From: Ephemerocybe angulata
Lineage: Eukaryota > Basidiomycota > Agaricomycetes > Agaricales > Psathyrellaceae
Assembly: GCA_013368325.1 (NCBI GenBank)
Contig: JAACJK010000073.1
Location: 62,001 to 126,000, forward strand
Length of the DNA: 64,000 nt
Direction: 5' to 3'
In this document: piece by piece, positions 660-64,000 of the stretch
How the letters are laid out: each line of letters begins with the position of its first letter
Numbering within the stretch: position 1 is the first letter of the stretch
Program-made: the position numbers and the translations under genes
The notes under the pieces: generated by a model
Seen by the model: the letters and a program-made list of their open reading frames with translations, nothing else
The model's database searches: none
What the model was told of the DNA's origin: nothing

Positions 660-711
660 GGTTCTATAGTGTAGTGGTTATCACTCGAGATTCTGATTCT
701 CTCAAATTCTC

Positions 712-1871
712 GGCTCGCCGCTCATGTCAGTAGCTGCAACTGCAACTGCAACTGGAAAATTATGTAATCAATGTCGTGAGAATAATCTGCTAAGTCTGGT
801 CACCTCCGTGTTTCTCTTCCACCTCGTCGTACAATTTCCCTATTTCTATCTTCCATTGAGACCCATTGACACTATCCTTCTATACTACTTTTTCCTCAAC
901 TGAATACACTATTGAATCCATAGACCTACGCAGACCCCACAAAGACCCCATGGAACCCACTCAAGCCTTGAGAATCACGATCACCTAAGCGCTACGCGGT
1001 ACACCTCCTACTACTCACGCCGAGTCCTCCACTTCCACACCTAATCCCAATACCATTCCCTCAGCTGCTTCCAACATGTCTTGACAACCGTTACCTCAGC
1101 GCCAACTACTCGCGTCGATGCTCAGAATAGGCCACCCCGGTCCCCCGCCCATTTCAAGTGCATTTCAGATTGGCCGCAGAGCGGGAGCACATGGAGAAGT
1201 TGTCAAGAAAGAGGGTGCGGAAAACCTACCAACCACGCGAACCTGTAAAGTGCAGCAACCGAGGCCCAAGGCAGTGCTACAAATGTGGGTCATTTGATTG
1301 CAAGGGGAAGAAGGCAAGAAGAAGGTCCCGAAGATATGTCCCAATCCATGCCAGGATTGCAAGAAGAAGTGCTGGGATGCGTGGGATTGAGTTGAAGATG
1401 CGCTATAGCTTATTACTGCTCTCCGTTATGTATTCAAACTTGTTTTAATCTTACACTTTGAGTTGCCAGTCTTCAAGAATCAAGAGTGGATCTTGACTGC
1501 TCGGTTTGTCCTCTCCTGGCACTGATGTGATTCAATCTCTTCATCGCATCTAATCTACGCGAGTAGCAGGTCCCCGAATGGGAGTTATAGATAGTTTTTC
1601 GGGGAAATAACACGCCAGTAGCATGCGTATCCATCAGAATCCCGCCCCGTTTGGACGAATCAAAATAAACCTCAAGAATACTGCCCAAAGGAATACCCGC
1701 TGGGCTCCCGATATTGTGCACGGCGTAGGTTGTCGCAAACTCAATTTCACACTGAAAGTGAGCTATACTGAGCTCTATCTCCTCCTCCCTCCTCCTCCCC
1801 CTTCCTCTTTTGGAATTCAATTTCGTTTAGTTATTTATTCTATTTCTAGCTACACACACCAGTAGCGAGCC
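712..1871 (+). mobile_element. Inverted-repeat DNA transposon, copy 1
   Basis: This 1160-bp element begins GGCTCGC and ends GCGAGCC, a short perfect terminal inverted repeat. Together with copy 2 it is flanked by an 8-bp target duplication (AAATTCTC), the duplication size of hAT-type and KDZ/Zisupton-type elements. No transposase is encoded, so it is non-autonomous. Internal frames at 1158-1448 (+) and 1473-1820 (-) are short. Around 1250-1400 the + strand keeps cysteine-rich coding traces in two adjacent frames: a CYKCGSFDCKGKK stretch, then a shifted CPNPCQDCKKKC stretch near 1338-1376. This suggests a decayed gene fragment with a frameshift. Superfamily assignment beyond the duplication size is inference. 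Confidence 0.75.
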
Positions 1872-1877
1872 ATTCTC

Positions 1878-3030
1878 GGCTCGCCGCTCATGTCAGTAGC
1901 TGCAACTGCAACTGCAACTGGAAAATTATGTAATCAATGTCGTGAGAATAATCTGCTAAGTCTGGTGTGTTTCTCTTCCACCTCGTCGTACAATTTCCCT
2001 ATTTCTATCTTCCATTGAGACCCATTGACACTATCCTTCTATACTACTTTTTCCTCAACTGAATACACTATTGAATCCATAGACCTACGCAGACCCCACA
2101 AAGACCCCATGGAACCCACTCAAGCCTTGAGAATCACGATCACCTAAGCGCTACGCGGTACACCTCCTACTACTCACGCCGAGTCCTCCACTTCCACACC
2201 TAATCCCAATACCATTCCCTCAGCTGCTTCCAACATGTCTTGACAACCGTTACCTCAGCGCCAACTACTCGCGTCGATGCTCAGAATAGGCCACCCCGGT
2301 CCCCCGCCCATTTCAAGTGCATTTCAGATTGGCCGCAGAGCGGGAGCACATGGAGAAGTTGTCAAGAAAGAGGGTGCGGAAAACCTACCAACCACGCGAA
2401 CCTGTAAAGTGCAGCAACCGAGGCCCAAGGCAGTGCTACAAATGTGGGTCATTTGATTGCAAGGGGAAGAAGGCAAGAAGAAGGTCCCGAAGATATGTCC
2501 CAATCCATGCCAGGATTGCAAGAAGAAGTGCTGGGATGCGTGGGATTGAGTTGAAGATGCGCTATAGCTTATTACTGCTCTCCGTTATGTATTCAAACTT
2601 GTTTTAATCTTACACTTTGAGTTGCCAGTCTTCAAGAATCAAGAGTGGATCTTGACTGCTCGGTTTGTCCTCTCCTGGCACTGATGTGATTCAATCTCTT
2701 CATCGCATCTAATCTACGCGAGTAGCAGGTCCCCGAATGGGAGTTATAGATAGTTTTTCGGGGAAATAACACGCCAGTAGCATGCGTATCCATCAGAATC
2801 CCGCCCCGTTTGGACGAATCAAAATAAACCTCAAGAATACTGCCCAAAGGAATACCCGCTGGGCTCCCGATATTGTGCACGGCGTAGGTTGTCGCAAACT
2901 CAATTTCACACTGAAAGTGAGCTATACTGAGCTCTATCTCCTCCTCCCTCCTCCTCCCCCTTCCTCTTTTGGAATTCAATTTCGTTTAGTTATTTATTCT
3001 ATTTCTAGCTACACACACCAGTAGCGAGCC
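1878..3030 (+). mobile_element. Inverted-repeat DNA transposon, copy 2
   Basis: This 1153-bp element is nearly identical to copy 1 and lies head-to-tail with it, separated by 6 bp (ATTCTC, 1872-1877) that resemble the target-duplication sequence. The only difference I found is a 7-bp indel: copy 1 has CACCTCC at about 804-810, which copy 2 lacks. The internal frames repeat exactly at an offset of 1159 bp (2317-2607 + and 2632-2979 -). The near-identity implies a very recent duplication. Confidence 0.75.
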
Positions 3031-3374
3031 AAATTCTCGAAACCCAGGTTCGATCCCTGGTAGGACCTGACTTTTTGGATTTCGTTCGTCAAGCGTCGAA
3101 CTTTGAAGACCACGTTTGTGCACGGCGAAATGAAGATTCTAAACAACCGCTGTATTTCATTTTCGACTTGCAAGTGGCGAGACGAGCCAAAATGCCCCTA
3201 CTTGTCAAAGCAAGGGAATGTTGAAAATGGGCCGATAGTATCTAGCGCACTCCATCTACTTTATTGATGCACTAACTGAACAAAAGTCTTCATTCCACAG
3301 ATACCATTGGCCGAACAACCCCGCAGAAGAGTCGGCAGAGCAGTAGGCTCAAAATCGGCAACAGCGCAGCATAT

Positions 3375-50048: not shown

Positions 50049-51240
50049 AATATGGGATGGGGAAGGGAAGGAACGCAAAAGTGAATATGAATATCGTTAT
50101 GTGTAAGTTTAAATGTATTTATCGTGTGATTCGAATGGCTCGTGTATGTACGGCTGATTCAACGTAGATCCCAAGGTAGGTACTCAACCGGCGGGGACGA
50201 GGATTTACGGCCAACCGGGACGGAGCACGGAGGATGGGCGGTGTGATGACCGAGTGAGGTATATAGAGCTCCGATTACAGCTTCGATTGGGGTTTTGCTC
50301 CTTCCTTCCTACCCCCATCCCCTCCTAGTGCCATCTCCTTTCTAGATATGTCCTCCGCTGCGCTCGAGGTGAGATCATTGCGTTCGGGGTCGCATGTTAT
50401 TGGACATGCCTTAGATCGTCTTCGATGGGCGGGATCGGTCTGCTATGTTCATCGTCGATGTGCCGGCACATAAGCTGCGCTGGTGGGGCAGCATTGATTT
50501 TCTTTCTTCCATTGCTCCGCTTTAAATCCATCAAATGAGCGAAATACATGCGATTACACCGAGCTTAAGTGGTAGTTGATGCGGATGTCTACTATGGCTC
50601 GTAATTTGGGTACAGTTACCCACATTTTTGCCTGCCCAGGTAGGATTCATCCTATCAGACCGCCATAGAAGTTCCGTGACCCATCCAATGTTTCCTCGCT
50701 TTTGACCCTGACTCTCATATTTGAACCCGGTCTTGCTGCATTCAAGGCTCGTGTGATATTCGCTGTATTTTTTCGTCTAGTCGCACCTCTATGATGGCGA
50801 CCAGGTCCATGGCATTCACTATAGGACTACTGGAATTTGCAAGGATATCATTATGGGCGGGGTCTGATTGACTTTGCCCTGTACCTTGCCTGTACCTTCA
50901 TGAATTCTTCGTCGGAATGTCGGAAGAGTGTGGGCTTCTCTAGTCTGGACGGTCATGTTGCGTCAGGCGGTCATACGGGCCGCTGTCCCCTCTATTACTT
51001 TCTTCGTTTGGTTGATTCTTTCTGTTGTGGATTATTAGGCAAGTAGATACAGGGAAAGATCTACATATGGCATTGACTCGGCTGGAAATAGGCCTTGTCT
51101 TGTATGTTGATAATTTACTACGTGTCGTGGCCCAGTCAGCGATCACTCCTGCGCATAGGAGGATAGCGACGTATGAGGCTCAAAAATACACATAATATTA
51201 CGCCTATCACGCAAGAGCTACACTTTTGGGAATTAGATGG
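50049..51240. other. No gene recognised
   Basis: The first ~150 bp are ALDH 3' flank. The rest shows no conserved frame. It lies at the likely left edge of the transposon island, but I could not place a terminal repeat. Confidence 0.4.
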
Positions 51241-51279
51241 ACTACACGACACACACGCGAAAGCTTCAGGGCGATTTAT

Positions 51280-51850
51280 TGACACTCACTGGCAGAGACG
51301 CGAAAGCTGACAGAATACGGGTTCTTGACAGACTCGCGAGAGCTAGAGACGATGGTGGGATAGTCGCGAGAGCTAGAGGAGATGGGGTGCACGGGAGGGC
51401 TACCATGGAGGAGAGACAGAGTACTCTGCGGGAAACACGCGAGAGTTTGCAGATGGACACCTTGCCTACGCAGACGCAAGAGCTGAAGAGGCTGGACGGA
51501 CGCGAGAGCTGAGTCGGAGATTGAGTGCGAGAGCTGAGGAGACTGGGCACCTTGCCTATCCAGACACGAGAGCTGATGAGGTTGGGAGACGCAGGGTGAA
51601 GGAGACTCGAGAGCTGACACGGAGCTGGGGGAAGATTAGGGAGACTCGAGAGCTGACGCGGAGCCGGGGAGCAACGGAGGGGGCTCTCGACACAATCGCG
51701 AGAGCTAGAGACGATGGTGGGACAGTCGCGAGAGCTAGAGGAGATGGGGTACACGGGAGGGCTACCATGGAGGAGAGACAGAGTACTCTGCGCGGGATAT
51801 GCAAAGCTAGCGAAGTGCGGAGGGTCGAAGACTCGGAGGACGGTTATAAC
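51280..51850. repeat. GCGAGAGCT minisatellite with a ~100-bp direct repeat
   Basis: The word GCGAGAGCT (or ACGCGAGAG) recurs many times. A ~100-bp segment (CGAGAGCTAGAGACGATGGT... to GAGACAGAGTACTCTGCG) is present at about 51333-51432 and again at 51700-51793 with two or three changes. Confidence 0.8.
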
Positions 51851-51879
51851 CTGAGCTTACCGCGGGAGCTAACGTGGAG

Positions 51880-52440
51880 ACGGAGAGGACAGAGGGTGGA
51901 GGACGAAGTGACGGAGGGAGGAGGGGGTGGGAGGGAGGAGGGAGTGACGGAGGGAGGAGGGAGTGACGGAGGGAGGGCGGAGTGACGGAGGGAGGAGGGA
52001 GTGACGGAGGGAGGGCGGAGTGACGGAGGGAGGACGGAGAGACGGAGAGGACGGAGGACGGAGGACGGAGTGACGGAGGGAGGAGGGAGGTGGGAGAGAC
52101 GCGAGAGTTGACGCGGAGGAGGAAGGACGGAGGGAGGAGGGAGGTGGGAGAGACGCGAGAGTTGACGCGGAGGAGGAAGGACGGAGGGAGGAGGGAGGAG
52201 TGACGGAGGGAGTTGACGCGGAGGAGGAAGGACGGAGAGATGGAGGGAGGAGGGAGGTGGGAGAGACGCGAGAGTTGACGCGGAGGAGGAAGGACGGAGA
52301 GACGGAGAGGATGGAGGGCGGAGGACGGAGTGACGGAGGGAGGACGGAGTGACGGAGGGACGGAGGGCAGAGGACGGAGTGACGGAGTGACTGAGGGAGG
52401 ACGGAGGGGTTGTGAAGGATGGAGCAGAGACATGAGAGTT
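51880..52440. repeat. Purine-rich minisatellite (GACGGAGGGAGGA)
   Basis: The + strand is almost entirely purine with spaced T/C. Units GAGTGACGGAGGGAGGAC/GGAG of about 15-30 bp repeat throughout. A longer unit with GGTGGGAGAGACGCGAGAGT and GACGCGGAGGAGGAAGGACG recurs near 52090, 52146 and 52256. The long proline/serine-rich minus-strand frames (51807-52669) come from this repeat and are not genes. Confidence 0.85.
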
Positions 52441-52499
52441 GTTGCGGAGGGAGATGGAGACAATTGATCTGATTTGATTCATGAGGTGTAAAGGAAAGC

Positions 52500-53248
52500 C
52501 TATTTAGATACATATGTAGGAACATGGAAACCATTCGGACCGTATATTGCCTCGTCGCCGGGTGTTCTCCCAATGATCTGGAGAGTGTGCAGGGCATCGT
52601 CCCACAGTTCCAAAGCCTGCCATAAATCCTCCGTCTCGATGCACCGCTTCTTGTAATAATCCAAGCCACCTTGGAGATGCTTCACCCACTCACTAAAAAT
52701 GTGTAAGTCATAAATAGGAGACACCAGTCAAAACAATCGGCTGTAGCTTACCCGTCGGAGTAGATCCCTGGAACACGGCCTTTGGTGACCACATAGAAAA
52801 TGGAGCTGGTGGGAATAAACGGTGGTACAATCGCCGGGCTCGTGCCTTCAAGCAGCTTGAACTCCCCCGACCGCCGCCAGCCCACGGGGAGCATGCCGTA
52901 CAGTTCTCGTGGCCTATGGATCCTCCGCCGCTCAGCTATCTCCTCCCTGATATCCTCCATGTGTCCTTCTACACCCAGTTCATCATCGTTGACACGATTG
53001 CTGACCCGCTCGATGTCCAATCGGGTTTCAAACATCTGATCCAGAAGGTTTTCGTTTTGGCTACGGAGCACGATGGCATGATTGTGGACCTGGTTGACCA
53101 TGGTGCCGAGGTACTGAATCTTGTTGTTGAGGCGGGCTATGGTAGTGTTGACGGCGGCTAGCGAAACATCGGGTACTGGACTGCCAGACATGGAGTCGTC
53201 AGAGATAGCGGGGATTGCGGTGGGAGGAGGTTGAATGAGGTGAGACAT
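52500..53248 (-). CDS. Viroplasmin-like (RNase H1 N-domain-like) protein, copy 1
   Basis: Exons 53248-52752 and 52692-52500 encode 229 aa. Residues ~35-110 form a predicted coiled coil (TTIARLNNKIQYLGTMVNQV, then heptad-like DIERVSNRVNDDEL). The C-terminal part starts FYVVTKGRVPGIYSDGEWVK, the Y-x-V-x-x-G-x-x-P-G-I-Y-x-x-W signature of the small alpha/beta domain shared by RNase H1 N-termini and caulimovirus inclusion-body proteins, which binds RNA-DNA hybrids or mediates protein contacts. It ends in TPGDEAIYGPNGFHVP. There is no RNase H catalytic domain, so this is a stand-alone binding protein. It is paralogous to the gene at 54002 and divergent from it, and minisatellites lie on both sides. 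Confidence 0.75.
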
Positions 53249-53399
53249 GTGAAGAGAACGGAGTGGAGAAAGGCTGATGGATGTTCTACTTAAATTAATT
53301 TGGCACAGAGACGCTGAGTGAGTGGGCTCTCGTGAGCCATATCATATACGGCATTTGATGATAGATGTAATCTCCGGCGCGTCATCAGGGAGGTGTCAT

Positions 53400-53880
53400 T
53401 GATGGTGTTGACAGAGCGGAGTGATGGATGGAGGACGGAGGGAGGATGGAGGGAGGACGGAGGAAGAAGTGACGGAGGAAGGATGGAGGGGTTGTACGGG
53501 AGACACACAAGAGTTGACACAGAGGGACGGGTCACGGATGGGGGACGGAGGTCAGAGTGACGGATGGAGGTTGGAAGTCGGAGTGACGGATGGAGGTCGG
53601 AGGTCGGAGTGATGGATGGAGGATGGAGGGGTTGTGCGGGAGACATGCAAGAGTTGATGCGGAGGGAAGATGGAGGACGGAGGGAGGAGTGACGCAGGAT
53701 GGAGTCAGGAGACACTCGAGAGTTGAGGCGGGAGGACAGAGAGACGGAGAATGGAGAGACAGAAGGCGGGCGGAGGACAGGGTCGTGTAGGTGGGTGTCT
53801 ACATGGTACACACGAGAGCTGAAGAGGATGGACGGATCGACTGAGTGTAGAAAAATGTAGGGCGGACGGAGGACGTCGGT
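53400..53880. repeat. Second purine-rich minisatellite
   Basis: GACGGAGGGAGGATGGAG, GAGTGACGGATGGAGGTCGG and GGAGACACACAAGAGTTGAC-like units repeat, of the same kind as the array at 51880-52440. It lies in the divergent spacer between the two viroplasmin-like genes. Confidence 0.8.
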
Positions 53881-54001
53881 CCCTGGCTTAACTGTCACAC
53901 TGTATTAAATATACAATAAATATCTCTTCCCGAGAGTATTGGACTATTTAAAGAGAACCAATAGCTCGCTCTATATGTGAACGACCCTCCCTGGACATAC
54001 T

Positions 54002-54746
54002 ATGAACACCCCTGGTAGCAACACCTCTAATCCTGTCATCTCTCCTGGCCCTCCAATCTCTGCGATGCCTGGACCAGCTCAAGGTTAGTCTTCTGAAAGT
54101 ATAGTGCAGGCCATCCTTCTAATACAACCTCAAGGGCTCCTGCAGATAACTTGTACCAAGCACGGAGGTTTGCAGGACCCTGGACCCCCAGAGGAGGACG
54201 CCGAGGAGGACGCCGAGGCAAAGAGGTTTGCCGAGCTCAAGGCTGATGTCCTGAGAATGTCCAAGAAGGTCGAGGACCTTGCCCAGCTCGCCGATGAAGC
54301 TTGTATTGCCTCTGCGAAGATCACCGATACCGACAGGAATATGGTTGGATTCGCCCAGAAGGTCATCGATACACTGGAGAACCTGCGCAAGGACCTCGCT
54401 TTGCCGTTCGTCGAGGCTGAAGTCCCCCGATTTGATGAATCAAGCAGTGTCTTCTATGTCCTCACAAAGGGGAGGGCTCCGGGAATATATTCCGACGAGT
54501 TGAGTCCTTTAAATCTTTTCTCTCAGTCAGGCGGATTTTAACGACACAAAACTTAGGGCGTGGGTTCAGCTTCTCGTCGAAGGCCTCGACGATAGCCAGA
54601 GGAAGGTCACCACCGTTGAGACACTCGCCGGGGCGTTGTCCATTTGGGCCGGAGAAGTCAAGGATCTCGCGTTCACTGGTCGGGTTCCTGGAGATGAAGC
54701 TACCTATGGTCCCATCGCTTTCCATATCCCCCCCAGTGCTCTTTAG
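54002..54746 (+). CDS. Viroplasmin-like protein, copy 2
   Basis: The three exons are 54002-54083, 54135-54498 and 54557-54746, giving 211 aa. The layout equals copy 1: a proline-rich N-terminus, a coiled coil (AELKADVLRMSKKVEDLAQL and following), then SSVFYVLTKGRAPGIYSDEA and WVQLLVEGLDD, ending RVPGDEATYGPIAFHIPPSAL. The last intron interrupts the IYSD motif at the same place and phase as in copy 1, so the genes share a spliced ancestor. An extra first intron distinguishes this copy. It lies 185 bp before the TET/JBP gene and points the same way. Confidence 0.75.
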
Positions 54747-54931
54747 TTTCCCTTGTAATATTATCAGTGACCACTTTGTATGTCAATCGAAAGATCTGAT
54801 TGGTATGATGGCCATGCGGAGCAGAAAGACATGCCTTGGATGGGATTACAGACCCGGCGATCTGGCCAATGGAACCACAAAAAGCTTCCGTGTTTAAATG
54901 AGACGGGACCTTGAGTCAGAGAGCACACAAC

Positions 54932-56277
54932 ATGGCCACTCTGGAATCAGAACCATCCGTCGGGCTTCAACTCTGTGCCACTGTGGGCAGATTCATGCAA
55001 GACATCTTTCGCTACAAGCTCGACGCTCGCAACCACTACGATTTACCTATCCCTGCTTTGCTTGACCGGGAGTTGGTGGAGGATTGCTACCTCGCCGTCG
55101 ACACCGTGTTTGAGGCCGCTAAAGGTCGTAACGAATGTGAGTCAAAGTAACCATCAGAAATGACGAAATATTACTTACCACTTCTTCCCAGATTCGACAA
55201 GTTGGACTCTGGCTGAATACACAGCAGGAGCGAAAAAGCCTAACGACGGGACGGGCGATGGAGAGTTCCCCAAAGCAACATTGAACCGATGTCAGGAGCG
55301 GCCTACCCTGACGGACACTCCTTGCCACGTTAGCGACTCGGACGGAAGGGTTCTTGCCTGGTATTTTCCGGGGGCGATATCAAGCCGGCGTCAGGTAAGT
55401 TAGAAAGTTGTAATTTAAAAGATAAACTAACAATGAATGTGAAAAGGCGCAGGTGGAGAAGGCCATTGTGGACCTTGCTCATGCGATGGAGAAGCCACTC
55501 CCGATGGGTCAAGATGGGAAAACATCCTGGAGGACAAATTCTTTTTTTTTTCGGAATCCGGAGGAGTGTGCAGTGCGGCCTGGGTGCGTATGCTTCAGCC
55601 CCTGCTGGTACAGTCAGGCACATCCGGTATGTGTACGATGCCCAATTGTTTATTTCAGTAGGACTGACGCACCTAAGCCCCCGAACCACGAACCTGGACC
55701 CTCCCAGACGCTTGCCGTCGATAAAGACAATGAGCAGTTTATCCGCTCGTTACAAGAGTATAATGCTCTTGTTGGCGGAATGCTCGCCGTCATCCATCCC
55801 GACCTCTATGACGTCGCCCTTGCTACTTGGAAGACCATACACCACTGCCCGGCAGGATCCACGAGACCGGATCGCGTCCAGGAGCTCCTTGGTATATGGG
55901 CATCTCCCTTCACCGCCATTTCCTTAATTGTCAACCGCGAGACGCCCATTCATAAGGATCGCCTGGGAGGCCAGAACTATCTCGATGCCGTTGCGACGTT
56001 TGGGAATTATGTGAATGGGAGGTTCGAAATTCCTGCCCTTGGGATGAGGTTCCGGTACAACCCAGGGTGTGTTATCTTCCTCAACTCGTATAACTTCGCG
56101 CATGGTGCCTCCCGCGTTGAGGGTGAGCGGTATTGCATCGCCTCCTTCTTCCGCCCAGATATGGTCAAGAACGGCTCGTTATACCACCAAGGGGCGGAAT
56201 CACTGCCGGCCATCCAAGATTATCGTAGGTTCTACGTTGAAGAGTACAGGGGCAGGGAGTCGACGGGAAAGATGTAG
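54932..56277 (+). CDS. TET/JBP-type 2-oxoglutarate Fe(II) dioxygenase
   Basis: Exons 54932-55136, 55192-55394 and 55447-56277 encode 412 aa. An alternative in-frame acceptor at 55453 removes two residues. The double-stranded beta-helix motifs are the iron-binding PIHKDRLGG (H-x-D, about His305 and Asp307), then RFEIPALGMRFRYNPGCVIF, the distal ligand in NFAHGASRVEG (about His355), and a 2-oxoglutarate-binding arginine in GERYCIASFFR (about Arg364). This motif set is that of the fungal TET/JBP family, whose members oxidise 5-methylcytosine (or thymine in JBP) in DNA. The N-terminal 135 residues are a lineage-specific extension. Mushroom TET/JBP genes are frequently neighbours of KDZ transposases, as here. 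A poly-T run (55543) is in the third exon but the frame stays open. Confidence 0.85.
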
Positions 56278-56333
56278 ACAGACGGAATGGTGTATTTAGC
56301 CTGACGAATCAATTAGCGGAGCATACCAAGTGT

Positions 56334-57150
56334 TTACATTAATGGAGAAAAATACGTCCGCATGAGACTGTCCTGGAGCGTTTTAGCCTCCTCCAGGACA
56401 TCTCTATGTCGGTCAAATGCACCGATGCTAACCTCCATTGCCTCCATGTGCCTCCCAAGTAAAACTTCACCAAGTGCGACGACATTAGCCTTCCTCCTAA
56501 CCCGTTCCGACGCTGCTCCAGTTATCCTGACCCGATAGGCCTCCTGCCAGAGCCCAATAACAAGTTGGGGAACAATAGCTTTGGCGGTTCCAAGGGACCT
56601 CCGCGTATCGCCAGACCACAACCACCAGCAATATTTCTTCGATATTTCGTGATCCCAGGGAGGGAGGGCTTCGGAGGCTGGATTGTTGTCGGCTTCGAGT
56701 TTCTTGTAGTCGCTTGGCGCCATGAAAACCCACCTGGCATCTGGCTGGAGCTCCAGGCCGGCCCGGAGCCAGGGGTTGGGGTCAATCTTTCCATCGGTAT
56801 AGAGAACGGACAGGGCATGAATGGAAGTTGCTACATGCTGGTTATCGGGGTCAGTTCTCCGATCTCAAAGATAAAAGTGTTCTGTTACATACCAGCTCCG
56901 CATTGAACCAGTCAAGCATGTGTGATGAGTCTTCTGAGTGCACAACCACTGCTCTCACCCCTGACATGGCACCCCGAAGCCTCGCAGCCATCATCGTGTT
57001 GAGCAAGCTCCAGTCTCCGGAGGATTGGCATGCCCAATCTGCATCGAGTAAAGACCTGGTTGCTCCGTTGAAATCGTTCAGAGACATTGGGGCGGTACAG
57101 GTACGATACATGGAATAACAATTAAATACGGTGTGTGTGCCTGATGTCAA
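56334..57150 (-). CDS. Unrecognised KDZ-island protein, 253 aa
   Basis: Exons 57150-56893 and 56837-56334 join in phase 0. The first ATG in frame is used. MYRTC (57108) and MSLNDF (57087) are alternative starts. The protein is soluble, rich in Trp and Asp/Glu (RSLLDADWACQSSGDWSLLN, PDARWVFMAPSDYKKLE, WDHEISKKYCWWLWSGDTRR), with a helical C-terminus (RHRDVLEEAKTLQDSLMRTY). I recognise no family or catalytic motif. Its stop lies 56 bp from the stop of the dioxygenase gene (convergent), and its start is 51 bp from the stop of the next minus-strand gene. This packing suggests it is part of the same element. Confidence 0.7.
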
Positions 57151-57201
57151 ATGGGGCCAATGACATATAAAGCCAAATAGAGGTTTCGAATTCTAACTAA
57201 A

Positions 57202-58067
57202 CTAAGAATCGCTGGTAATCCTAAACGTTGCAACTGCCGGCGCGTCAAGATTGAGGACTGGTGGTACAAGATCCTCGTTGTTGAGTGATCCGACAAGGCT
57301 CTCGCACTGCTGAATTCCGGTCCACACAACCGAAAGTGCATTGAGTGTGGTCTTCTGCTCCTCGTCAAGGTAAGCCTCCGTGGAGCGAAAATTTGCAGAG
57401 AAGTCGCGGAGCTCGTTGAGTGACATCAGCTCAATATTTGCAGTCGTGGTTTTTAACGCGGAATGGGGTGAGGGGTGATGGCGGGGGAACATCTTTTTCT
57501 TACTCTCCAAGTTATCGCCCACGTTCCGAAAGTCAATGTCCAACACCTCCTCCAACGCTCGCTTGTCATTCCACCAGTCTTCTGCGTATTTTCCGATCCG
57601 AGGGTCATGGAGGGAGCTGGTAGCTACGACTGTGGCCACTGAGTCCTTCTGCAAGCCGCGGAGTGTATGAGGTTCGCTGAGGGCGAGCAGAGTAAGGAGC
57701 CTGTAGAGCTCCGGAATGGAGATCTGACTGGGGTAGCGGAGGGTGACGACTCCGATAACGGCGTGTGCGTACATCTAGAAATGAATGTTAGCCCCGCCTC
57801 TGCATCTCACAATCCTGAACCCACAATTTCCTGCCACATATTCTTTCTGAAGAACATGCGTTCCAGCCCCGATGTACTATCGTAGATTGCTATGAGGCGA
57901 TCACACATAGTGCGGAGCCTGCTTGATGTGTAATTGGCGGAAAGCTGGGAGTCATCGAGGTTTAAGCCATACAGGAAAGACAAGCTGGCTTGGGAGACAG
58001 AATGGGAAGGCATCTGCAGAGAAGTGGGTGGCGAAGGTAAGATAATCTCTGTAACGGCTTGAGACAT
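57202..58067 (-). CDS. Unrecognised KDZ-island protein, 271 aa
   Basis: Exons 58067-57825 and 57774-57202 join in phase 0 (MWQEI then MYAHAVIGVVTLRYPSQISI). The sequence is mostly helical and lacks signal peptide, TM helix or zinc motif. Recognisable stretches are ELYRLLTLLALSEPHTLRGL, KYAEDWWNDKRALEEVLDID and VWTGIQQCESLVGSLNNED. Starting only 24 bp after the transposase stop codon, it has a TATATATAG just before the ATG (58070 region), so an own promoter inside the transposase 3' end is likely. Function unknown. A role in transposition is inference from position. Confidence 0.7.
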
Positions 58068-58091
58068 CTATATATAGCTTACATGACTAGA

Positions 58092-61000
58092 TCATCCCGT
58101 GTCCGAACTCTCGTTGACACCGATGGCCGACTCCTCGTACCCCGTGGAATCACTGTCACTACCGGTATCAAAAGAAGACTCTAAATATATCTCCAGTGAC
58201 CTTCTTGCTTCGTTAAATTTGGCGAGAGCATGTCGCCGAAGCCGACTCCACATTGCGGAACGGCGTGAGGACCAAGCTTTCTGGGCCGCAGTCTGATTGG
58301 GGAGCTCCGCCCACTCGGACGATTGCTCCGCTTGGTACGAGAAGTAGTTTAGCACCCACTGCATTTCCTCCGCAATCAATGTATGCTCCTCAACCCACCG
58401 CGCGTGCCGTGCGCGTGCCTTGAACCAATTAACTCGATGAACTAAGTTTCAGTGAGTAAATGATTGCCTGAGTGAGTGAATTAATCTTGGGGGGGGACTC
58501 ACGTTCATTCAAGTACGCGTCGTTGCTCAGATCACTGGAAAGTCTTTGTGACCAGATCCAAGAAGGTGGGCTGTTCCGATGGCCCCGCTCACGGTGATCG
58601 TATATGTGGGCTATAGGTTTAATGTCGGCTGGGAGTATTGGCTTGAAATCCTGGAGGATTTGCTTGGATGCCCCAAGTCTGGTCAAAGCCCAAAGTGTTT
58701 GTCGATAAAGCGAGCGGAGGTAGTTTATAGTTCGGTTGGAGGCTGCGACACCGGAGTACCCACGGAGACGATCCTTCTTCCCGGAAGCCAGATTGATGTT
58801 GGCACGGAAAAGGAATGTCTTATTACCCACTTCTAGGTGGATGCGTTCGAGGCAGTCGGAGGCCTGTGCGATGCGGAGCTTTACTTCCTTCTTCACTGCC
58901 CTTTGCCACACAGGAGGAAGATCTAGACATGCTGAAGGTAACGCAATTTGGATGAACTCTGGGAGTCCGTCCATGTCCAGGAGAGGATTGGAGGTGTCGC
59001 AGGTATGGTCACAGTCCTCCGCATCACAAATGCAGTGAGGCACAGGCGGAGGAGCAAGCTCAAGCTCAGAAACATCCAGGAGTGGAAAAAGAGATTCAGC
59101 ACCCTTATAAAACTCCTGGATGCGCATCGCTAGCCGATCTCGTTTTGTGGCTATATCAATTCTTTGGGTGTCAGACGGAGCCTTTCCGCTCCGCCGAACC
59201 GTTAGAATCGTCTGGAGTCTGTGCTGCAATTTAAAACAGGGAAATGTTGATCCGACGGAGATACTCACTGCTGTTCCTGAATGTCTAAGCCCAAGGATAG
59301 CCATTTAGTTACACCCAGAGCCACATCATCCGCTGTGTCTTCATTTTCCATGAGATCCGCCTGGACCCGTTTTCGTGTCGGTTCTTCAAGAACAGAGGAT
59401 ATAAGTGCACAAGGTTAGGAAGATAACTGGATGGCGTACGTTTGAGCTTCTCCGTGACATTGAAGACATCCATCGCCGCCACATTTTTCTTTCGGTTATC
59501 TAGTGCATTGTCCATGGACAACGTCCAAGTGGAGATCTGGGAAGGAGACGCAGTGGAGGAGAGCGCCTTGTAGTCTCCGTACGCCTTGTCCAGCTCTTTC
59601 CGCGAGGAGAGCAGATTCTTGCTCAGTGCTGGGACTGGGGGTGGAAACGAGTGTCAGCGTTTGAAGTCCGTAACGGGCAAGAGGGGAGAATAGTTGACAC
59701 ACTTAAGCCTAGCATTTTCTTCCAGTTGCTATCGAGCATATGGGCGTCAAGCACTTCCATGCGGTGTGGAAGCGTCATTACACTAGATGTCCTCCCGACA
59801 TCATTCAGCGTTGACCAGAGAGACTCCAGGATCTCTCCGCTCGTCATTCCCGCCCCGGGAATGAATGAAGGGGAGTATCGAGCCATGCACCTCTCCTTAT
59901 GGCCATGTACGTGCCATGTTCCAATTCCCCAAATAACATTGTCCAGGTCTTCGGCATCTAGCAAGCGATCATTTGCACTCATCCTCCGTTTGGCATTCGT
60001 GCTATATTGGCATCCGATGTCATAGAGCAAAAGGATAGCCGGAGCGTCAAGGGTAGGGCCATAGCGGAGCCCCTGTGTAACTCCATAGTCAATATTGAGC
60101 TGCCTGTTCATGGATTATTAGGTTAATAATGATTAATGAGTGAATTGTTATGGCTCCGCACCTCTCGCCCTTTTGAAAGTCTACCACTGACGTTGGCACA
60201 AATGCTCCGTGTCTACTGCAAGCCAGAGCGCCAATTCCACTGACATCACACCCCTTATGTGGCTTTGAACGATCCGCGATCGCTCGATGGTCGTAGCATT
60301 TGGATCTCTAAAAGCAGAGTGAGATGTATTAGCTTGGTATTAGCAGCAGCTGTATGTAAGGAAACGTGTCTCCTTACCTCCTTTTCCTCCGTCGTTTCAA
60401 GGACATGTTCAGAATATGGAATAGGAGCGGTGACGTAGCCCTCCCCCGCCTTCAAGCCTATATCCTTTGTCCCGCCTTTTTGCATACGATGAATGCACTT
60501 AAAATTTCCGTCGATAACAAACCCCCGCATGTACAACCACCTCCGCAGGTCATCAATCCAGGTCCGGGGAAGGTTGATACCAGGCTGGGGGCATGCCGCA
60601 CAAAAGAATGCAAGTTCTCCGGGACCAGGAAAGTCACTCCGGTTTGCGTATCCGAAGGCTGCCAGTTCCTTAAGATGTCGCCATTGGCGGCCCACACGGA
60701 GTAACTCTCGATATCGATCCTGAAAAGCAATAGTTCAATTTGAATGGAGTCACGGAGGAGCAAATAATAGAAACATACAGGAACGGAACTAGGGAACGTC
60801 TCGTTGGTGAGACGTCGCAACTTCCCGAAGAAATTATATGTTGAGGTATGGCATTCCAGAGTCTCCGTCAGATAATAGTCAAGGAGTTGGCATGTGAATA
60901 CAGATCGAGGCTCGTCCTCCGTCGATGGATAAAGCCCCGACCCGAGTAGCTGGAATGGAAACGGAGCTGCTCCCTCGCAGTTACACTTGGCCACTGGGAG

Positions 61001-61740
61001 GTGGTGGATGCCGTTTGTGTGAACGACAAGGAGTACGGGACACCCATGAATTTTGCGACCTGGAGGGCTGGCTCCGTATGTGACATCGTCGTCGGAGGGC
61101 TTGGTCGGGCCCGTATCACCCTTTCTGTAGCTCGATTTGGGACAGGGTTCACCATAATGGCCCAGGTGGACGACAACTCCTACACTCCACAGCCAAGCTG
61201 GCTCATAGTGCTCCCCCGTCCAGCGTTGGATCCTATGCAGCTGGTGCTCCGCATGTTCTGATTTGCAGCACTGCGCACAGAAGAAGGTGCGCCCTATGCA
61301 GTCGTCGCACCGGTATATCCCTTCCCGTCTTCCACAGATTAAGCAATCCCCGTTCTTTGGTGGGGCCTCTCGCTCGAGCATGACCATGAGGTACTCCCGA
61401 TAATTGAGCATCCATCTCCGCATGTAGTCCGGTTGGGTCTGGTATGCTTGTTATTAGTCGGGGACATGATGTACGCTGAACCACGCACCTTGGTAACCCC
61501 CATGTTTGATATATCGATGGTGAGAGACTCCAAAGGTCCGTCATCATCGCCCTCCTCAGACGACGAGGGATCAGGGGAGGTGTGACGGGACACCCTCGAA
61601 CGTTTGTACGCAGGGGTAAAGGATCGCTTTCTTCGCTGAGAGGGCTGAATGGAAAGCTTCCGTCCCCGGGAGCTATGATTCACAGTGAAGGTAGACCCTC
61701 CTGTGAGTGGGCTCTGAATCTTCCGCTTTCGGGGTCGCAT
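58092..61740 (-). CDS. KDZ (Kyakuja-Dileera-Zisupton) transposase with CxC2 cluster
   Basis: The nine exons are 61740-61489, 61438-60779, 60719-60378, 60307-60162, 60103-59703, 59634-59440, 59383-59269, 59218-58503 and 58441-58092. They give 1058 aa with no stop. The N-terminus is basic and Ser-rich (nuclear targeting likely). Residues ~116-152 are the CxC2 cluster CLICGRREGIYRCDDC...FCAQCC...H...H. The RNase H-like transposase core follows: CPQPGINLP, FVIDGNF (Asp374), ACSRHGAFVPTSVVDFQKGE, LLYDIGCQY (Asp495), GHKERC, and GEILESLW (Glu560). These are the three acidic residues expected for catalysis. The C-terminus includes KWLSLGLDIQEQQ and a long helical tail. Complete length and conserved motifs suggest an active or recently active transposon. 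Confidence 0.95.
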
Positions 61741-61968
61741 ATTATCGGAGATGCGTTGAGGATGGAAAAGGACCAGAGACTATATATTATTTGGACAGAT
61801 GGATACACCCGATCCGGGTGGATCCAATTAAATCTGAGATCTACTGTTGCTCAATATCTGTATTTAAGCTGGCTGATTTTGGAGATTACAAGCCGCACCC
61901 ATACCTTTATTGCACACACTCCTCCGTTGATCCATCGCACCATAATCCTCTCCATATTCCACCATCCA
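61741..61968. promoter_or_regulatory. Divergent promoter between transposase and acidic protein
   Basis: Only 228 bp separate the two start codons. TATATATTAT at 61781-61790 lies about 40 bp from the transposase ATG. On the other side the AT-rich CTGTATTTAAGC (61857) lies ~110 bp before the acidic protein ATG. Co-regulation is a reasonable inference. Confidence 0.6.
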
Positions 61969-64000
61969 ATGACCAAGACATCCAACACGGACGTTAGTAC
62001 AAGCGAGGAGGAGCTAGTCTCTCGCTCCGGTGGCAGCGTATCCAGCGGTGAGAACAATGACAATAGCGAAGCCAGTAGCGAGGGTGAGGGGAGTGGCGAT
62101 GCTGAAAGCGGGGAAGGGGCCAATGATACTGATCAGAGCGTGGAGGAGGAGGAGGAGGGAGAGGGAGAGGAGCACCGGGTTGAGCATGAGGAGGAGGACG
62201 GAGACGTCCAAGCTGAGAATGGGGAGTTCATGACCCTCTCTCCGGAGGATCAAACGATCCTCCATGAACACCTAGCTATCTATCGGGTGTCCGCTAAGGC
62301 GAAGCGACCCTCCGTGGCACAGAATTGCGCCAAGCTGATTACCTCCCGACGGAGAGAAGCGAACCAGGCTCTCAGTAAGAGGGAGAGCAAAGCCTTACCT
62401 CATGTATGTACTTGTTGTACGCGGTTGTGAGTCAGACAATACTGATCTTGATTACAAACCTAGGTACTCAAAGATTGGTTTGACGCCCAGACTCCACGGA
62501 CAACAGTGAAGGGTGCAGTTGGGAAGGTGTGGAATGTGAGAGGAGTCTTGCAAGTTGAGCTTGCGGAGGAGATCAAGGAGGTGCGGGATAAGATGACGAA
62601 GAAGTGGGAGCGATCGGCGGAAGGCAGGAAAGCGACGAAAAGCGAGAGAGCTAATAAGCAGATTGGGTTCTATGGTAATGCAACGACCGAGATACTCGAA
62701 GCGCTACCAGAGGAGGAGCGCCGGCGATATGAGAAGATGGCACGGGAGTGGACTCTGGAGGGGCCCTCGATGGAGGAGCAACAGAGGTGAGCGCGTTCTG
62801 CATCAAAAATACTACATACTGACGATGCAAACTCGGAGATCGTCGAAAAACTTTATGAAGGATGCCGATGCGTTTGCCATTCGCTGTTATAGCCGAATGA
62901 ATGTTCGGTTATTCATGTTCGCATCCTACTTGGACGAAAGAGGTACGTCACTACCGTCTACAAAGTCAGCGAAATGGGAAATCTGAGTTCTCGCTATCTG
63001 GATCCAGGTGACCTCGTTAGCATGCCAATGGATTTCACACAGGTAGTGGGGGAAACGTCCTTCACTGCAAGATACAAAGAATTGATCGAGACATCCGAAT
63101 TGACCGCTGCGTGGGATAAATGGAGCAAAAAGGAACTTACCTCTTCCCATCACCAAACGACTCGTGCTACGGGGGAGCATATCCGCCCAGCATCTAAAGC
63201 TCTCCTTGTCTTACAAAAGAATCTCTATTCAGAGCCTATTCTACCTGATCCACGTGAAGTCCCACTGGGGATCAGGCCCAAGGACCATCTCACACGCCTC
63301 TTCCGAACGTTCATGGTTATGTCCTATGGTGCGTAAAGTTATGGTTTAGTGTCTTAATCTACTCTTAACCTTTCCACCCATCTTCCAGCGGTTGCAATGG
63401 GGACGGCAGATGACGGCACACGTGCAGTCGTTCCATGGTCGAAGCTCACTGCGGACCCAAAGAGCTTCATAGCGGAGGAGCACCTCCCATCGAAGTACCA
63501 CGAACACATGAAACTCGATCCATCGACATGGCGGTTGACAACTCTCCGTTCGCTCTTGACATTCTGGTGGGACCGTCAAGCTGACTTCAGTCGACGGAGG
63601 GTTGTTGATAAACCCGCATTCGAGTTCCATTCCTATTGGGATCCGACTTTGAAGAAGTGTGTCCCAAGAGTTCCCCGGGTGCAGTACATTGATCCCGAGC
63701 CATCCGGGGAGGAAGGAGGGCAGGAGTCGCCTCGACCACGCAAGCAACAGCCGACGAAGAGTAAAATCCCTCCAAGAGGCAACAGGCCTCGCACACGATC
63801 AACCTCGAGAAGACCCGCGTCCCAAGACTCTTCCATTGCGTCCAGAACACGATCCAGCTCAAGAGCATCCGAAACATTGAACACCAGGTCACCATCGAAC
63901 GGGAAAGGTTCAAGTTCAAAGTCAAAAGGGCCGGAGGCGGGGGGAGCAGCAGGAGGTAAGTCGTCCAAGTCCAACGCGGGAAAGGCAAATGGGTCGAAGG
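61969..64000 (+). CDS. Acidic KDZ-linked protein, 3' end outside the window
   Basis: The exons are 61969-62403, 62464-62786, 62839-62942, 63008-63328 and 63389 to the window end, all in phase and open. The N-terminus (to ~residue 90) is very acidic and Ser-rich (SVEEEEEGEGEEHRVEHEEE). Next comes a basic helical region with KKWERSAEGRKATKSERANK and ATTEILEALPEEERRRYEKM AREW, which recalls HMG-box-like or transposon-linked basidiomycete nuclear proteins. NVRLFMFASYLDERGDLVSM follows, a form common in such proteins. The C-terminal part is Arg/Ser/Lys-rich, with many RTRS and GKGSSSKSK runs. I recognise no enzyme motif. DNA or chromatin binding is likely but unproven. Confidence 0.75.

Follow-up and report, generated by a model that had tools for sequence, protein, structure and literature searches.

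The stretch of DNA analysed here (the window) is a 64,000-nucleotide segment of the genome of the basidiomycete Ephemerocybe angulata (C97:62001-126000, contigs being named C plus a number), and it was compared with the 58.7 Mb assembly. An earlier note on this DNA had placed, at 52500..64000, an island composed of a KDZ transposase with a CxC2 cluster, a TET/JBP dioxygenase, two viroplasmin-like proteins, two unrecognised proteins, and an acidic nuclear-type protein. All of these genes are present, the viroplasmin match being sub-threshold, and the island is very probably, judging from its sequence features, a complete DNA transposon of the cut-and-paste type that seems intact and belongs to the TET+ Kyakuja kind (KDZ class). 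The limits first given for it were too narrow: the element occupies 51144-73163 (22,020 bp) and passes the end of the window by 9.2 kb, positions beyond 64000 being counted on from it. Its gene order is VPL1<, VPL2>, TET>, UNK2<, UNK1<, KDZ<, HMG>, G<, H>, of which G and H lie beyond the window.

Genes and ends of the window element

The KDZ transposase (58095..61779, minus strand) was recognised by Pfam and by motifs. Its CxC2 cysteine cluster (60797-61033) scores 79 bits against a Pfam cut-off of 27, the KDZ core is matched at C97:121725-122105, and no stop interrupts the conserved exons, which contain DGNF, YDIGCQY, and GEILESLW, motifs recognised by eye. The TET/JBP dioxygenase (54902..56277, plus strand), assigned by Pfam (82 bits; cut-off 34.9) and by alignment with CcTET, has a stop-free main exon and matches the CcTET structures 8jkk (E 2.4e-33) and 7vpn (E 2.6e-33); aligned to 8jkk, it keeps the catalytic residues HKDRLGGQNYLD and FAHG of the HxD...H iron triad, with HxD at 55951 and the distal His at 56101. 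Counterparts of CcTET G331 and D337, numbered as in the main text of PMC12730594, are present as well (counted by eye).

The unrecognised proteins UNK2 (about 56334..57087) and UNK1 (57205..58067), both on the minus strand, have no Pfam match above cut-off. Homologue searches with UNK1 returned nothing for the single sequence and one protein, from Ephemerocybe angulata, for a profile (7997 candidates scored), a weak negative given the length and word limits of the search; the structure model of a UNK1 relative, P0006, was poor (predicted local distance difference test score, pLDDT, 46). The HMG-box gene (61969..~65124, plus strand; start approximate) is divergent from KDZ, passes 64000, and encodes a protein with an acidic N-terminus. 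For the window copy the Pfam search found no HMG box; pieces of the relatives on C47 and C120 exceed the PF09011 cut-off of 22.4 (28.9 and 25.8 bits, respectively). The acidic nuclear-type protein is probably the product of this HMG-box gene. Beyond the window, comparison with sister elements delimits G (68770-65577, minus strand), with a zinc cluster and a coiled coil, and H (70700-70954, plus strand), an open frame.

The TET-side end of the element begins CACTCCTGCGC at 51144, which is also where the alignment of C97 with a related copy on C189 breaks, and the far end, TCTACTGAACGGCCTG, resembles the end of a sister element, P, from the opposite strand. The 7-bp sequence CAGCGAT that precedes 51144 (51137..51143) reappears at 73164 (73164-73170), directly behind the far-end sequence, and when the two flanks are joined into one query, its alignment splits with an overlap of exactly these 7 bp. 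Together, the alignment break, the P-like right end, the repeated CAGCGAT, and the joined-flank split define an element of 22,020 bp, of which 51144..64000 is the in-window part. The earlier note had anticipated terminal inverted repeats and an 8-bp target duplication; no terminal inverted repeats were found at these ends, which instead read CA...TG, and the target-site duplication (TSD) is 7 bp long. Its expectation that the partner genes would all lie inside one pair of ends is borne out for every gene it named. An end-pair scan of C97 gave seven pairs, among which 51144/73163 ranked first.

No unoccupied copy of the window element's target was detected in the assembly by the joined-flank query, and the recurrence of the right flank on C75 and C98 probably reflects contigs that overlap at one locus. 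A paralogous empty site was also sought in the repeat cluster that flanks the element; there the insertion lies in sequence that is not conserved. This cluster of diverged repeats occupies 25446-50177 and 73431-76028, with pieces 65-79% identical on both sides. Elsewhere in the window, a tandem duplication lies at 706-3039 (1.17 kb, 99.2% identical), and Rfam gave no match.

Sister elements, ordered core, and genome-wide linkage

Element P, on C117, is inserted in an older KDZ-TET element, Q; pieces of its TET, KDZ, UNK1, HMG, and G proteins are 29-96% identical to those of the window element. The empty site of P is visible in the C22 copy of Q (99-100% identical), so that the insert can be measured at 18,757 bp, starting CAGGACATTCAGTAGAT and finishing GCAAGTAGTG, with flanks that have exactly 7 bp (TGTAGTC) in common. 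A third element, C120:362224-381168 (18,945 bp; TSD TTTCCTT), was identified by scanning 35 candidate pairs. Aligned in inverted orientation, its subterminal sequences reach a score of 55, where 300 random pairs gave no more than 26, and a 59-bp inverted repeat starts about 30 bp inside its ends. The three elements thus share 7-bp duplications and CA..TG ends, with no terminal inverted repeats. On C47 and C232 no TSD was found, and no end pair was accepted (the best scores, 25 and 22, did not exceed the null maxima of 27 and 25), the C232 stretch compared possibly stopping short of that element's right end.

Two further observations concern Q. Its terminal ~94 bp are copied at C117:3248880-3248972, C47:76492-76584, and C207:320902-320994 (78-96% identity); the C207 copy may mark where the KDZ-TET locus on that contig ends, and the others are perhaps ends of derivatives. 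A second TET-like fragment (C117:1030665-1031425) starts at about the right end of Q (1030733), and this stretch has relatives at C112:484833 and C18:734845.

The arrangement TET> <UNK1 <KDZ HMG> is kept in order and orientation in all six families with enough sequence to compare (C97, P, Q, C120, C47, and C232; C189 is counted with C97 for the portion ahead of its contig end), and in four of them (C97, P, C120, and C232) it is extended by <G H>. UNK1 proteins are related across families (profile comparison, E 1.8e-12), that of Q being a weak match (E 5e-9 and 5e-6). For H, the match is strong between C97 and P, about E 5e-5 between P and C120, and E 6e-10 between C120 and C232; for G, C97 matches P, and C120 matches C232 weakly (E 1e-4), and in direct searches the C97 G pieces match only C97, the duplicate contig C75, and P. 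From these comparisons, HMG and UNK1 emerge as the more constant partners, followed by G and H. The earlier note had proposed both unrecognised proteins as constant partners; UNK1 was found in six families, and UNK2, among the islands compared, was matched only in the C189 copy. A distant relative of UNK1 (26% identity, two internal stops) lies at C47:676108-676698, with no CxC2 match nearby.

Ratios of nonsynonymous to synonymous substitution (dN/dS) between C47 and C232 are 0.13 for TET, 0.06 for CxC2, 0.11-0.16 for UNK1, and 0.06 for HMG, at synonymous divergences (dS) of at least 1.1; dS could not be estimated for the KDZ core or for most C97/P pairs. Between C97 and C189, dN/dS is 0.12 for TET, 0.14 for UNK1, and 0.34-0.46 for UNK2. 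These values indicate purifying selection on TET, KDZ (CxC2), UNK1, and HMG.

Across the assembly there are 82 CxC2 matches, 26 of class B (short match) and 56 of class A, and 25 TET matches above cut-off, five below it being excluded. A CxC2, whichever its class, lies no more than 10 kb from 18 of the 25 TET matches. Convergence with a class-B CxC2 is seen for 17 at a distance of up to 10 kb, and for 18 when the distance is extended to 12 kb. Only 2.8% of random points fall within 10 kb of any CxC2 match, and the 17 convergent cases therefore exclude chance as the source of the KDZ-TET linkage. The other seven are on C189 (cut by the contig start), C98 (class A, divergent), C117:995377, C112, C209, C18, and C232:289114, the last with a KDZ-core match 4 kb away at the contig end. 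In 19 of 23 cases an HMG match has a class-B CxC2 less than 10 kb away (2.4-4.0 kb), all 19 divergent. These counts are lower bounds, because the HMG search missed C22, where the DNA is 99% identical to Q.

It could be supposed that a small KDZ element sits amid unrelated genes and older repeats, its apparent partners being bystanders; the sheer number of KDZ loci and the occurrence of one VPL1 copy, on C11, away from any of them would fit such a view. Yet in both the window element and P the genes lie within one end pair with a 7-bp TSD, the empty site of P contradicts a bystander reading, gene order persists between families with synonymous sites saturated or nearly so, and HMG recurs at a short distance from class-B KDZ and divergent to it. 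We therefore regard bystanders as extremely improbable.

Inverted minisatellite arrays lie inside both ends of two of the three delimited elements, C97 and P. In the window element, a G-rich array occupies 51879..52408 (plus strand), with smaller blocks within 53410-53630, and a related, inverted C-rich array lies beyond the window at about 71100-72800; in P, arrays of ~1 kb each sit just inside the ends and are 78% identical over 895 bp. At E 1e-3, inverted versus direct hits between arms number 27 versus 0 in P and, for the weaker arrays of C97, 8 versus 0. At E 1e-5, inverted hits number 26 and 5, respectively, and none arose in 50 full-length dinucleotide shuffles of one arm per element; at E 1e-3, one of the 50 P shuffles gave an inverted hit. 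No inverted match was found in the stretches of C47 and C232 compared, and C120 has only its 59-bp repeat.

CpG is abundant in the P arrays, with an observed/expected ratio of 1.24-1.35, as compared with 0.77 in the interior and 0.99 in the host flank, and the contrast in C97 is small (0.94-1.03 against 0.85). Whole elements range from 0.71 to 1.00, against 0.99-1.03 in three other stretches. A fourth stretch, C232:220000-228000 (1.01), taken as flank, holds G and H of the C232 element; among two more loci compared, a KDZ locus had a ratio of 1.04 and the other 0.90. CpG depletion is suggestive only as an indication of methylation, because C47 and C232 are hardly depleted.

Some of the results weigh against the transposon reading. 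The inverted score of C97 is 22, with no inverted repeat above chance in its terminal 250 bp, so its ends are supported by the break against C189, the resemblance to the end of P, and the TSD; for Q, no clear target duplication was obtained. H is weakly matched between pairs (18-22 bits for C97 against C120 and C232), and G of C97/P agrees with G of C120/C232 only in position, orientation, and zinc motif, with no direct match. The extended core is not universal, since Q (11.6 kb) stops right after HMG, without G and H, and C47 has neither in 212.9-221.9 kb (9 kb). The arrays of C97 and P are unrelated in sequence, Q shows no inverted arrays in the stretch compared, and at E 1e-3 three of the 50 C97 shuffles give one inverted hit.

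Viroplasmin-like genes and their exchange

VPL1 (52500..53248, minus strand), with two exons and an N-terminal coiled coil, and its paralogue VPL2 (54002..54746, plus strand) are hand-made models that are 49% identical in the conserved C-terminal part and share FYV.TKGR.PGIYSD..W. Their core motif, YVV.KGR.PGIY...W, resembles that of the ribonuclease H1 N-terminal/caulimovirus viroplasmin domain (PF01693; 1qhk). By score, VPL1 and VPL2 remain under the Cauli_VI (PF01693) cut-off of 21 (17.4 and 14.6 bits; E 0.0055 and 0.04); in the Protein Data Bank, the viroplasmin-like proteins had one match up to E 10, ribonuclease HI (1qhk, E 1.1). The suggestion that these proteins bind RNA-DNA hybrids accordingly rests on a sub-threshold match. 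A homologue search with VPL1 returned five proteins, named Ephemerocybe angulata, and the structure model of a VPL1 relative, P0001, was poor (pLDDT 40). One predicted protein of this species, P0002, fuses an H-like stretch (by eye) to VPL1, which suggests that in some copy the H and VPL1 genes are adjacent.

The family numbers 16 copies at 13 loci. Ten of these loci lie within 10 kb of a CxC2 match and one, on C179, at 15.8 kb; the C189 locus is cut by a contig end and has TET, and for VPL1 on C11 the nearest CxC2 is at least 56 kb away. The earlier note held that partner genes at conserved syntenic positions without KDZ elements would count against it; a single VPL1 copy, that on C11, has no KDZ near and to that extent partly refutes it. 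The constancy it proposed for the viroplasmin-like genes gives way to mere frequency, as eight of the 26 class-B (TET-type) KDZ loci carry one, and P and Q have no match. Their position also varies, being on the TET side in C97, C189, and C120 and on the HMG side in C215, C219, C179, C47, C125, and C197. Matches beside class-A KDZ, on C98 and twice on C218, are weak (best piece E 0.002-0.004; 0.02-0.06 in a second search). In this class-A subgroup (C98:185320-193425, C218:211327-213078, and C218:712461-714165), the viroplasmin-like gene lies ~1.3-1.6 kb from the CxC2 exon, and the C98 locus additionally has a TET match.

In 200-bp bins, the identity between C97 and C189 is 96.5-100% for the initial 800 bp and 98-100% for the VPL1 bins (52544-53143); within VPL2 it drops from 99.5 to 90.5%, and from 54944 to 57743 it is 67-89%, the minisatellite bins aligning poorly. 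Synonymous divergence follows the same course, at 0.017 (exon 1) and 0.16 for VPL1 and 0.04 and 0.33 for two pieces of VPL2, as compared with 0.82 for TET, 0.67 for UNK1, and 0.43-0.55 for UNK2. VPL1 DNA is likewise 89% identical between C97 and C120, whose TET proteins are 47% and KDZ pieces 29-61% identical, and C11 and C120 share a 1.26-kb repeat (94.9%) in which VPL1 is the sole recognised gene. The low dS and high identity of the viroplasmin-like genes beside a diverged core therefore indicate that they have a recent history of their own and have been exchanged between elements.

The near-identity at the end and VPL1, the contrast in dS between VPL1 exon 1 and TET, and the repeat common to C11 and C120 would also suit a TET-side end that is a separate mobile unit, or the product of recent recombination, grafted onto a Kyakuja element with VPL1 and VPL2 as passengers. 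We consider this possible but somewhat unlikely: viroplasmin-like genes recur by KDZ in three arrangements and with diverged sequences (the class-A matches being weak), and VPL1 appears to be under some purifying selection (dN/dS 0.08-0.47, C97/C189), which fits a useful, exchangeable accessory.

Known systems and proposed mechanism

In work by Iyer and colleagues in PNAS in 2014, TET/JBP genes are said to be linked to KDZ transposases and to further proteins, including one with a divergent HMG domain. In plants, En/Spm (CACTA) elements carry subterminal repeats that are bound by an element protein and linked to methylation control; these elements have a different transposase class, a 3-bp TSD, short terminal inverted repeats, and no known TET enzyme, and would offer a functional analogy to a window element with subterminal arrays. 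Zisupton, within the KDZ class, was considered as an assignment and set aside; it needs an 8-bp TSD, and three elements show 7 bp.

The linkage of KDZ and TET/JBP, which the earlier note called known, is indeed in print: as described in the main text of Kojima (2025; PMC12730594), TET+ Kyakuja combines KDZ with an AG-type TET/JBP, 7-bp TSDs, CA..TG ends, and a lack of terminal inverted repeats, and the window element has all four features. The introduction of that paper states that it was previously unknown whether TET/JBP-KDZ genes sit in complete transposons. Because the 7-bp TSD and CA..TG signature is already published there, KDZ plus TET is not new. Unlike TET+ Kyakuja as that main text describes it, the window element has an ordered core, exchangeable VPL genes, and inverted arrays. 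The same main text makes no mention of HMG, viroplasmin, or ribonuclease H, nor of subterminal, minisatellite, or tandem repeats or E. angulata, on which its Table S1 and Data S1 could add further detail. A search of a limited set of papers returned nothing combining KDZ with viroplasmin, Kyakuja with subterminal repeats, or Ephemerocybe angulata with transposition. Within these limits of the literature, the novelty lies in details of a known kind of element, namely an ordered core that includes G and H, VPL genes open to exchange, and inverted arrays.

KDZ is expected, by analogy, to be the mover, and the CcTET-like enzyme is predicted to oxidise 5-methylcytosine and N6-methyladenine. The transposase, aided by the HMG and zinc-cluster proteins, would recognise the element ends and move the whole block, recognition in the window element depending in part on the inverted subterminal arrays. 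We think it fairly likely that TET oxidises methylated bases on the element, chiefly at ends and promoters, so that it stays expressed and mobile. As exchangeable accessories, the viroplasmin-like proteins might counter RNA-based silencing or bind nucleic acid that belongs to the element, which is more doubtful. We infer a counter-silencing function, and the anti-silencing model of the earlier note is plausible; its TET part is already in print, since Kojima proposes in the main text that transposon TETs allow escape from methylation-based silencing (PMC12730594).

TET could alternatively mark host DNA or serve as a host-useful regulator. CcTET is an active enzyme according to the main text of PMC12730594, a paper cited there bears a title on oxidised methylcytosines in Coprinopsis cinerea, and element-encoded TETs could act in trans. 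Set against this are the location of TET inside the element and its selection in diverged families, and Kojima argues likewise (main text, PMC12730594); we judge a host function distinctly unlikely.

A more ambitious proposal, and on present comparisons an improbable one, is a dedicated counter-silencing machine in which the HMG and zinc-cluster proteins would bring TET to CpG-rich inverted end arrays, end methylation would be the switch for transposition, and interchangeable VPL modules, exchanged together with the element end, would guard against RNA-guided silencing. If true, this would be a multi-gene anti-silencing cassette within a eukaryotic DNA transposon.

What had been a loose gene neighbourhood is now a defined 22-kb element with exact ends, and these ends make the role of a transposon-borne TET directly testable, by relating methylation of the ends and arrays to the TET, HMG, and zinc-cluster genes that the element carries. 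Its ordered core and exchanged end module suggest an organisation above that of a simple transposon, and the presence of a DNA-demethylation-type enzyme and partner genes alongside the transposase suggests that it comes equipped to escape silencing.

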